A DNA stretch of 48,830 bases from Irineochytrium annulatum (lineage: Eukaryota; Chytridiomycota; Chytridiomycetes; Chytridiales; Chytridiaceae): NCBI GenBank assembly GCA_027600665.1, contig JADGJL010000067.1, positions 1-48,830 on the forward strand, in the 5' to 3' direction. A program made the translations under genes and the position numbers. Positions 43,933-48,695 of this stretch are shown here, piece after piece; position 1 is the stretch's first letter, and each line of letters begins with the position of its first letter. The notes under the pieces were generated by a model. It saw only the letters and a list, made by a program, of their open reading frames with translations. It had not been told where the DNA came from and made no database searches.

Positions 43933-46900
43933 ATGAGTAAGCGGCGATGGGGGGTCGGTGGGAGGACCCCCCGCGCGCTGGCGGTAGCGGTCTGGCTACT
44001 GACGCTCGCGCAGGCCGTTCTCGCTGTCGTTCCAGGTAATGAGGCTGATGGAGGGAACGCGGTTTTCTTACCTGCAGTGTTGAACCAACCCAAATTTTCC
44101 TCTCTTCCTAGTCCACCTGCTCGCCAGCGGAGCCTCATTCCCTGGAGACCTCTACCTCCAGCTGGTCGCGCTCTTTCAAGAACGTAACTCGGACACGATC
44201 GGCAGTTTCATGTACAATGTGTCGTCCTCCAATAACGGGCAAGCGGATCAGTACTACAGTAGGACTCATTGGGGAAGTTCCGATATCGCGATTAATAAGA
44301 CGAGCTACCCTGGACCGCCGGAGTTGATTGCATTGCCGTCGGTTGGAGCGTAAGCGTTTTGAAAGTTAATTCTTCGGCATAATGCTGATTTGACATTCTC
44401 GCAGAGCTATCATCGTCGCGGTTAATATCCCCAACCTTCACACCGTAACCCCATTGAAACTATCCCGCAACGTCCTGCCCCTTATCTTCTCTGGCAACCT
44501 GACCTCTTGGAATGACCCTAGGCTCCTTCGCGATCAGGACGACTCGCGGCTCGTATCGCTCCTCACTTCCATGCCTGGAAGCCCGCGAATTCAGCTCATC
44601 GTCCGTAGCCCCGGTTCCGGAACGTCCGCAAACTTCGTCAAGGTGCTTAGGCGCATGGAACCGGCTTTCCCGCCCATGTCAGATTGGTCCACGGTTCTGC
44701 CGGACGCGTTTGTGGCGAACTCTAACCCGGCCGTCGGGAATATCCTGTCAAGTGTACCTTACACAGTGAGTTTACGTGCATCGGTGGCTGTCGCCGGGAG
44801 TCTAACATGAGTGACGCAGATGACCTACATGGATGCGCACGAGCTCATCGGCCTCCTCTCCGCCTTGTCGCCGCCGAACACGCCGCCCGTCGCTTCCTAT
44901 ATCCAGAACGCCATCGGCGAGTTCGTGCTCCCGACGGCGGATTCGGTCGCTAACGCGTTCGCCTCCGTCAACGCCTCTGAGCTTGCGTCGCTGGACCTAC
45001 ACACGGCAGCAGCGTCGGTATTGGATCCGCCGGGAGTGGCAGGAGTATACCCAATGGCCGTGATCACAAATGTCGTCATCAGGACGAACGCCATTGCGGA
45101 TGATGTGGATATCGCGCGGGCGGTGCTTCAATTTATTTGGTGGATGCTCACGGATGTTACGGTTTGTCTTGGATATGCTTGAAGTCAATATTTCTAACGT
45201 GAGCAAAACGCACGACAGCTCCCGGACCTCCTGCTCTCTATGAACTTCACTACCATCCGCAGCACGCCACTCTCAAACCTCACGCTCTCCTATCTCCAAT
45301 CCTATACTCACTCGACCGACCCCGTCCCCCTCTACGGCCAATCTATCTGCGACATCCCTGGCGCCTGCCAGCATGGCTCGTGCCCCTCGACTTTACCCTT
45401 CCAACCCGCGACCGCCACGTGCCAGTGCGACCGCGGCTGGACAAATCTAGAGGCGTCCGATTGCTCCGAGCGCATCCCTGTCTTTGACTGGTCGGACACG
45501 ACGGTGCCAGCGCAGCTGGGCATGGGCGTCTTCGGTGTCTTGGTCGTCGGGACTGTGTGGGCGCTGATGTTGGTCACGAGGGGGCATCCGAGGATGCGGA
45601 CGATTTCACCTTTGTGTTGTCAGTTTGTGTTGGCGGGTTGCGCGGTCGGGGAGCTGGCCGTGATTATGTATGCCGTCACGCCAACGGACTGGGTTTGCAA
45701 CGTCCGCATCTTCCTCCCGGCCATCGCGTTCGGGCTCGTGTTCGGGATGATTATGCTTAAGACGTACAGGATCTACGCCATTCTAGGATACTCGAAGGCG
45801 TCCAAGTCGAGGGCGATATCGGATCTTACGCTCATCGCTGTGACGATGGGGTTGACGGTCATCGAGGTGCTGCTGTGCCTCATCGATGTGCTAGTGTCGA
45901 AGCCGCGAGGAGTGTTGGTGCAGCTGCCGGTGATTACGGTCCAAGCGGGCGGTGGCGCGGGGGTCGTGTACGCTGCCACTGCGACACCAAAGACGTATGT
46001 GGCGTGTCAGGCGTCGGACGGGAGAGGGGAGATTGGAATGGCAATTGAGATCATCATTTATCTGTACAACGCGCTTGTCCTTGTCGGAGCGCTTTCGCTT
46101 GCCTTTATGACGCGGCGCGCCTACACAAAGTATAGCGAGTCAAAAGCTATCGGATATGTTACATATTCGGTGACGGTAGCGCTGGTTTTGGCTCTGGTAA
46201 GTTGCCCTTTCTATCGTTATACTGTTTTGTTGAGAATCATAAGTAACGAGTGGGTAATTCAGCCAATCCTTTACGCCGTACCCGTTGATAGCTTACAAGC
46301 ACATGCAATCATCCGCCTTATCCGCGCAGTTCTCATTTTCCTTTTATCAACTCTCACGCCTCTCATTCTCTTCACCGAGCGCCTTCGCGCGGCCCTGCTC
46401 GGCTCCGCTAAGATCCTACTAAACCCAACAATGATCACCACTCCCTCAGCGGGCCGTGGCGGCGCTCCCGACGCCCACGTCGACCCGGCGGACGCGACCA
46501 GCCAGCGGGAGTTTAGGCAACCGCACTGCTCAAGCATGGATCCGACCCGAATCTTTTCTTTCGGCGGTCGACGTACGCAACTCTCATCGCCCCCTGGAGA
46601 CCCGATCCGCGTTCAACAGAACCAGGTCAGCAGCAGGGCACACACAAACTCCGTCGTCGCAAGCTTCACGGTCCCGATCGATCATGAATCCCTTCCGCCA
46701 TTACCACGTCTCCCGGCGATCCCCTCCGTTAGCATGAACACCACGAGCGCCGAAGCCGCGTCGCACTCACCGCTCTATAACCCGCTAGTCAACAACATCA
46801 ATGTCACACACACGGCCCCGTCCCGCTGGCATGACCGCCGGCAATCTAACAGCGCCGTTCGAACTTCCCGCAGCGGCGGCGAGCCCGCCGCCCTCTTTCA

Positions 46901-47387
46901 TGTGGGAATCCGGAGAGATCGACTCCTGAGCCCGTGGCGAGCGTCGAACCTCCTCGTGCTGCCGCAGCAGGACCTTATGTTCTTCATGGCAACCGAAGGC
47001 GACACGGCTGGCACAACACACCGGACCCTTGCGTCCTGCAGGGTTTCGGCGTGCCAGATGTCAGGCGCCGCATGGAATGCACAAGCGGGAGCGGCGCCGT
47101 ATGTCGTCAGCCGCGGCGGAGCTGCGATTGGGAGCTCTGTCATGGGGGATGGGGAATGTGACGAAAGCGAAGGAGTGATTTCGCAGACGGAGAGTGGGAG
47201 CGGACCGATGGGGATTCCTAGCGATGGTTTGGGACCTAGGAGCTCGGTTTGTTTAAGGCCGGAAGGCGATCGGGTCGGATGGGTCGTGGAGTTTGCAACT
47301 AGCAAGAGGCTAGGGCGGTTCAGGGCTGCCTGCGACGCTGCCTGCGGCGCCGCCAGGGGAGCGGGCGGAGGTAGCGCGCTGGCTTGA
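43933..47387 (+). CDS. Class C GPCR with a PstS-like phosphate-binding ectodomain and EGF-like linker
   Basis: Six exons (43933-44035, 44112-44349, 44405-44765, 44820-45161, 45219-46196, 46263-47387) give 1,048 residues. The ATG at 43933 opens a basic head plus hydrophobic core, a signal peptide; an in-frame ATG at 43678 would bury it. The ectodomain (about 35-345) follows bacterial PstS in order: GASFP, SSNNG, WGSSDIAI, PSVGAAIIVAVNIP, SGNLTSWNDP, VRSPGSGTS. In E. coli PstS the equivalent residues (Ser of SSGG, Asp of GASD, Arg and SGT of RADGSGTS) contact phosphate. An EGF-like cysteine-rich linker follows (ACQHGSC, ATCQCDRGW). Seven membrane segments start at about 45505, with the conserved class C cysteines (DWVC, VACQ). 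The cytoplasmic tail of about 300 residues is Ser/Pro-rich. Several N-glycosylation sites sit in the ectodomain. Likely a plasma-membrane receptor; phosphate as ligand is inference. Confidence 0.87.
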
Positions 47388-47798: not shown

Positions 47799-48695
47799 AT
47801 GGACGTCGCGAGGTTCACGGCCAGCTACCTCCGCGATCTAAGTCGCGACCCGAACACGGTTGCCGCCGTGCAAGCCGACCTCGTCGCCGGGCGGGCCTTC
47901 GAGACCACCGAGAGGATGGCCATCATGATGCTGGACATAAGCGGATACTCCAAGATGTCTGCTGACCTGGTGAGTTTAGGGGTCTTATGGAATTGATCGG
48001 GTTTTGGGGTAGTATTGCTGTGATAGCGACGCGGTCGCTCTGACGGGTCCTGCTGGTTGCATTTTAAGCAAGGGAGGTCGCTTTCTACTGTGGTCGCTTG
48101 GTATTGTATCGTTTAAAGGGTTGCTGTATGGCAGAGGCTGAGGATGCTGAGGATAGCACGTGGACTGAACGGCGCGCAGCGCTTTCGTTGATTTCGTCAA
48201 TAACTGCATTTCAACTTACAATCTCCTTAAGACTTTCCTCGGCAAGATGGCGTCAGAAATCACCACCATGTCTATCGGAGCATACATGAATCAGGTAGCA
48301 CATCAGTGATATTGCCTGGATCATTCGTTACTTAACGCTATACTTATGCATGTTCATCCCACAATGAAGATTATTGATGTCATCTCGCTGTACAACGGGG
48401 ACATTGTCAAGTTCTTAGGTAGGCAAGGAAAATAATGTGTTGTAACACATTTTGTAACATATTTTGTAAAATTGCATCGCCAGGTGACGCCGTCCTCGTA
48501 ACTTTCTCCAAGAGCCATCTGCTGGAATGTCACGGCCAGGTTTCTATGCGAGCGATTGGGTGCTGCCTGCACATCATGTCGGCGTACCCCGTTATGGATC
48601 TCAACATGAAGATTGCAGAAACAAACGGGGTTAAGGTTAGGGTTAGGGTTAAGGTAAAGATTAAGGTTAAGGTTAAGGTTAACGTTAAAGGTTAG
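47799..48695 (+). pseudogene. Soluble adenylyl cyclase-like gene F, truncated inside C1 by telomere-like repeats
   Basis: Exons 47799-47969, 48232-48294, 48370-48418 and 48484 onwards keep frame. The N-terminus (FTASYLRDLSRDP, AFETTERMAIMMLDISGYSK) aligns with the start of copies A to E, and the C1 metal aspartates are present (MLDISGYS, VKFLGDAVLVTF). The match continues through RAIGCCLHIMSAYP to DLNMKIAETNG, corresponding to the NIGEI region of the others, and stops at about 48628. Beyond that the frame reads repeat-derived Val/Lys/Arg dipeptides and ends at a TAG (48693-48695). C2, the ATPase and the helical region are missing, so no cyclase can be made. Intron positions differ from A to E: there is no intron before DISGYS, and two extra ones lie around NGDIVKFLG. 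This was therefore an older, divergent family member before it was cut. Confidence 0.75.

Follow-up and report, generated by a model that had tools for sequence, protein, structure and literature searches.

Fungal class C G protein-coupled receptors (GPCRs) are known to use ectodomains other than the usual type I module. SPPG_06488 of Spizellomyces punctatus is a class C receptor with PF12849 (PBP_like_2), a family assigned to clan PBP, while LysR_substrate occurs in class C ectodomains of both Allomyces and Spizellomyces, and OpuAC and SBP_bac_1 in those of Allomyces (PMC3251606). Likewise, almost half of the class C receptors of gut fungi carry type II substrate-binding domains, all of the sugar type (PMC5168858), and PBP_like_2 stands among the abbreviations of a survey of social-amoeba GPCRs (PMC10445921). 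The word "phosphate" does not occur in the main text of PMC3251606, and searches of the open-access literature, going by titles and abstract openings, turned up no description of a PstS-type phosphate-sensing GPCR. Here we describe a gene at 43933..47387 on the forward strand of a window of 48,830 nucleotides, the whole stretch of DNA analyzed (contig JADGJL010000067.1, assembly GCA_027600665.1), from the chytrid Irineochytrium annulatum (phylum Chytridiomycota). Its product is a class C GPCR with a PstS-type ectodomain, an anatomy and ancestry that we regard as firm. It is a variant of a kind already known, fungal class C receptors whose ectodomain is a type II binding protein. To judge from its sequence, the receptor probably lets the cell sense extracellular phosphate.

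The initial annotation of this locus, which had proposed a GPCR with a PstS-type binding module, knew of no characterized example. The calcium-sensing receptor, which has a type I ANF ectodomain, is likewise of class C and senses phosphate, as the Irineochytrium protein is predicted to do. In that receptor, phosphate has been described as a non-competitive antagonist that works via an anion site, residue R62 of which is needed, and not as a cleft ligand (PMC6795806); neither for phosphate nor for the ectodomain, given the non-ANF fungal examples in print that include PF12849 (PMC3251606, PMC5168858), does the statement stand. Like the fungal type II receptors, the Irineochytrium protein places a type II binding-protein family ahead of 7tm_3 and lacks NCD3G, and it shares an EGF-like element with some gut-fungal receptors (PMC5168858). 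NCD3G is not required for class C membership, since it is absent from all the novel non-metazoan members reported in PMC3251606 and GABA-B receptors are excepted from it (PMC5168858). Unlike the sugar-type receptors of gut fungi, our protein belongs to the phosphate subfamily and, in Irineochytrium, has kept a phosphate pocket; SPPG_06488, named in print by its Pfam family alone, can be compared by that description only. In contrast to bacterial PstS and PhoX, the module is fused to seven helices rather than being the soluble partner of a PstCAB transporter, has no transporter partner, has lost the Asp that pairs with the phosphate-binding Arg, and scores below the equivalog cut-off for PstS. 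DING/human phosphate-binding protein, which is not known to be joined to a receptor, gives a lower fold match to the predicted ectodomain than plain PstS.

The domain assignments bear out the proposed fusion. In a Pfam search with the 1048-residue product, PF00003 (7tm_3) matches residues 438-711 (E 5.7e-32; 111.8 bits against a gathering score of 33.5) and PF12849 matches residues 103-346 (E 2.7e-11), so that a clan PBP family and 7tm_3 both exceed their cut-offs in one fungal protein; a profile search of the contigs places the two at 44397-44657 (PF12849) and 45486-46214 (7tm_3). The ectodomain alone matches TIGR00975, the NCBIfam model of PstS, with E 1.6e-31 and 109.6 bits. Neither PF01094 (ANF_receptor) nor any other type I PBP family appears at E<=1 in Pfam, and none of the 21 PDB sequence matches is a type I PBP; a better fit to LIVBP/ANF, named in the initial annotation as grounds for refuting it, is thus not seen. 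The predicted structure of residues 1-355 of the public protein model, HK101_010050, has the bilobed PstS fold, type II and not the usual type I, although the alignment fed to the predictor was mostly PstS and biases the model toward that fold. Seven helices are indicated by hydropathy peaks at about residues 449, 480, 510, 552, 626, 662, and 693; further windows over the threshold lie in the signal peptide, at 102-122 in the ectodomain, and beside the helices at 562-598 and 684. A cysteine pair linking the top of helix 3 to the second extracellular loop is typical of class C receptors, and Cys508 and Cys611, invariant across the three aligned homologues described below, correspond to it. Where many class C receptors carry the nine-cysteine NCD3G domain, which is not detected at E<=1 in Pfam, six cysteines (Cys392-Cys430) join the ectodomain to the helices. 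They are invariant in the three homologues, are the only cysteines between residues 35 and 440, and are called EGF-like here from their spacing, without a profile score.

Besides Irineochytrium itself, a protein search found this architecture in Dinochytrium kinnereticum (42% identity, query coverage 93%) and Blyttiomyces sp. JEL0837 (36%, query coverage 95%), the Irineochytrium and Dinochytrium ectodomains being 45% identical. The search covered about 5.8 billion sequences. Scoring, as in the full-length profile search described below, was confined to the 8000 candidates with the most shared words, and more distant proteins, SPPG_06488 for example, may have escaped it. A search with the ectodomain profile gave 300 proteins at E<=1e-5; among the 120 matches listed, those with a source name are named as phosphate transport or phosphate ABC substrate-binding proteins. 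When 82 sequences were placed in a tree rooted at its midpoint, the three chytrid ectodomains grouped as a single clade (support 1.0) whose stem measures 1.07 substitutions per site. For the three proteins sampled, this is consistent with a single, old capture of a PstS domain. Between helices 3 and 4, some 28 residues are missing from the public Blyttiomyces model, probably through a mis-set exon border.

The motifs quoted in the initial annotation (SSNNG, WGSSD, and VRSPGSGTS) are present and align with PstS. The seven residues that hold phosphate in PhoX (PMC5439949) were placed by motif and spacing on an alignment of the three chytrid proteins with 79 stand-alone PstS, presumed bacterial, PhoX itself lying outside the alignment (Table 1). 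On this basis, all seven contacts are kept in Irineochytrium and in Dinochytrium and six of the seven in Blyttiomyces. Phosphate is, on sequence grounds, a probable ligand of the Irineochytrium protein and a doubtful one of its Blyttiomyces relative.

The gene model underlying these assignments reproduces the outer coordinates given in the initial annotation; its six exons are separated by five GT-AG introns, each 54 to 76 bases long, and it ends with a stop at 47387. Introns 3 and 4 must come out because in-frame stops lie inside them; intron 5 is open in frame, and splicing it out restores the helix 6-7 sequence as aligned with Dinochytrium. The NCBI model of the same gene, HK101_010050, has 645 residues, numbered differently from ours, and contains the same two domains, but signal peptide, final helices, and tail are missing from it. 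The tail that our model adds matches those of the Dinochytrium (5.45e-11) and Blyttiomyces (1.82e-9) homologues, and a signal-like stretch that also opens the Blyttiomyces homologue is the counterpart of the added signal peptide. A block of the tail at about 46896-47330 (residues ~886-1030) is conserved with both relatives, has no Pfam match, and might be a small folded domain.

Table 1. Exons of the receptor gene and predicted phosphate contacts of its product
Feature	Window position	Strand	Residue, 1048-residue model (HK101_010050)	Irineochytrium, Dinochytrium, Blyttiomyces	79 PstS	Content
Exon 1	43933..44035	+				Start codon; signal peptide = hydrophobic run, residues 15-33 (hydropathy peak 2.41)
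Exon 2	44112..44349	+	Ser43, Ser74, Asp92			First part of PstS-type ectodomain
Exon 3	44405..44765	+	Arg181, Ser185-Gly186-Thr187, Asn221			PstS-type ectodomain
Exon 4	44820..45161	+				C-terminal part of PstS-type ectodomain
Exon 5	45219..46196	+	Cys392-Cys430			Ectodomain end, EGF-like linker, helices 1-5, start of helix 6
Exon 6	46263..47387	+				Remainder of helix 6, helix 7, cytoplasmic tail
PhoX Ser34			Ser43 (S11)	S, S, S	T 60, S 18, gap 1	
PhoX Ser62			Ser74 (S42)	S, S, S	S 79	
PhoX Asp80			Asp92 (D60)	D, D, D	D 78, E 1	
PhoX Arg159			Arg181 (R149)	R, R, G	R 79	
PhoX Gly164			Gly186 (G154)	G, G, G	G 79	
PhoX Thr165			Thr187 (T155)	T, T, T	T 79	
PhoX Asn201			Asn221 (N189)	N, N, N	N 78, S 1	

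From the domain order, the homology, the predicted fold, the kept pocket residues, the occurrence of the fusion in three genera, and the four G-alpha loci that exceed the family cut-off in the genome, we favor, with modest confidence, a class C-type receptor in which a domesticated PstS clam-shell closes on phosphate and thereby activates a G protein. Inorganic phosphate, or a close oxyanion such as arsenate, would bind between the two lobes, and the cleft that they form would close on it as in bacterial PstS. The EGF-like linker would then relay closure to the seven-helix domain, which would activate a heterotrimeric G protein, and the level of extracellular phosphate would be reported to the cell or the motile zoospore. 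The ligand, closure as the switch, the coupling to G proteins, and the biological role are proposed by analogy, the ligand being the weakest step. The wider proposal, that PstS was captured once before Irineochytrium, Dinochytrium, and Blyttiomyces split and that the chytrid family as a whole comprises high-affinity sensors of extracellular phosphate acting directly via G proteins, is tentative, and we would put its chances at slightly below even.

Several observations weigh against phosphate sensing by a PstS-type receptor. The initial annotation had the phosphate-holding residues all kept, and this stands for the Ser, Asp, Arg, and Ser-Gly-Thr of Irineochytrium, each present on the alignment. 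Part of the surrounding pocket has gone, however: the acidic residue that pairs with the phosphate-binding Arg (Asp137 in E. coli PstS) is Asp in 77 and Glu in 2 of the 79 PstS, but the chytrids have Pro, Pro, and Ala at this position, and the Arg itself is Gly in Blyttiomyces. Immediately ahead of the pocket Ser, the chytrids have Ser, Asn, and Ser (Gly in 78 of the 79), the Gly-Ser-Gly loop of PstS has become Ser-Ser-Asn in Irineochytrium, and a Phe that adjoins the Asp motif and is invariant in PstS (79 of 79) is replaced by Trp in all three chytrids. At the level of the whole domain, the 109.6 bits of the ectodomain stay under the TIGR00975 equivalog cut-off of 205, as do the scores of Dinochytrium (107.2 bits; E 8.3e-31) and Blyttiomyces (142.8 bits); the Dinochytrium protein has no Pfam PBP_like_2 match at E<=0.1, its PstS being matched by the NCBIfam model only; the 79 chosen PstS are only 23-29% identical to the Irineochytrium ectodomain; and the predicted fold carries the bias mentioned above. 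Finally, no phosphate-linked gene was recognized among the 10 scanned of the 21 open reading frames of at least 200 residues left of 43500, where family matches were found in two of the ten (XPG_I and abhydrolase).

A rival account keeps the descent of the ectodomain from PstS but supposes that its ligand has changed, with phosphate specificity relaxed after the fusion and the receptor now sensing a different small anion or a compound bearing a phosphoryl or carboxyl group. We consider this less likely than phosphate sensing, though it deserves serious weight. It would account for the loss of the Arg-pairing Asp in all three chytrids, the altered loop, the exchange of Phe for Trp, and the Arg-to-Gly change in Blyttiomyces, and it is in keeping with the long stem under the chytrid clade and with the diversity of ectodomains on class C receptors elsewhere in this genome. 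Set against it is the retention of all seven phosphate contacts in two of the three proteins, including the pocket Asp, which in PstS accepts the phosphate proton. Moreover, loss of the Arg-pairing Asp is compatible with binding, as Asp137 mutants with phosphate are present in the PDB. The Blyttiomyces Arg-to-Gly change is not accounted for in this way and argues that phosphate affinity is weaker, or the ligand changed, in that species.

An improbable alternative is that the ectodomain serves as a non-binding scaffold and that what drives the receptor is a partner protein, dimerization, or its own helices. GABA-B2, with a binding-type domain for which no ligand is known, provides a model for such behavior, and the Blyttiomyces Gly would suit it. 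A further case came from the full-length profile search, which recovered the three chytrids together with P0004, a tandem PstS protein without 7tm_3, and P0005, a protein of 1227 residues with 7tm_3 and two PstS-like units. In the first unit of P0005, other residues occupy the Asp, Arg, and Ser-Gly-Thr positions; a PstS-type ectodomain on a class C receptor therefore need not bind phosphate, a further point against the phosphate-sensing account. The helix part of P0005 scores 72.0 bits to another Irineochytrium receptor, L014, against 36.6 to the gene described here, hinting at a separate fusion. The scaffold explanation is countered by the contacts kept in Irineochytrium and Dinochytrium despite the divergence of their ectodomains.

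That a bacterial pstS fragment came to lie beside a fungal receptor through misassembly or contamination has next to no probability and was rejected: bacterial-looking contigs do occur in the assembly (its long open frames include at least 33 matches to SBP_bac_1, though never on a contig that carries 7tm_3), but the binding-protein part has two introns inside it and two at its borders, its third-position GC (0.698) is nearly the same as in the helix part (0.697), PF12849 is matched nowhere else in the genome at E<=0.001, and the presence of the same fusion in two other genera makes chance or misassembly very unlikely. As to the assembly itself, contigs C1, C2, C126, C325, C547, and others hold many long unbroken sugar-binding-protein frames, and one SBP_bac_1 stretch is dense with long open reading frames, which suggests that the assembly carries bacterial contamination.

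Within the genome, the 32 matches to 7tm_3 group into about 20 class C loci, and at 10 of these ANF_receptor is matched immediately upstream, in the same orientation. Of the other ten, all but C802 were examined: two loci match SBP_bac_1 weakly, one each Bmp and Peripla_BP_4, and two Laminin_G_3, all below the Pfam cut-offs; L015 resembles L014 by eye, L025 has no match in the piece scanned, and one is the PstS-type gene, which is thus 1 of about 20. The weak laminin-G-like matches are those of L020 and L026 (contigs C788 and C743); in L020, cysteine repeats of the ephrin-receptor-like kind also exceed the Pfam cut-off. The genome search found no OpuAC.

No Rfam family reaches its cut-off in the window. 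At 47800-48560, on the same strand, a downstream gene begins. Its pieces, once spliced, show a weak likeness to adenylate cyclase type 10 (E 9.2e-4 for the best PDB match) and have no Pfam match, so that an identification as a soluble adenylyl cyclase is weakly supported. At the contig end, 48630-48830, TTAGGG-like repeats are followed by a retroelement-endonuclease-like stretch (MIIVGDFNIR), as judged by eye, no search having been made.

Phosphate sensing in fungi has so far been attributed to transporters such as Pho84 and to intracellular SPX domains. If the receptor binds phosphate outside the cell through a bacterial-type site, it would constitute a third route beside these two and would provide motile zoospores with a cell-surface phosphate input. 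Because the binding domain is free of cysteines from residue 35 to the linker, its separate expression should be practical and the central claim cheap to test. More generally, class C receptors have taken up a PstS-type binding protein, and the identity of a receptor's ligand might hence be read from the domain that it has captured.
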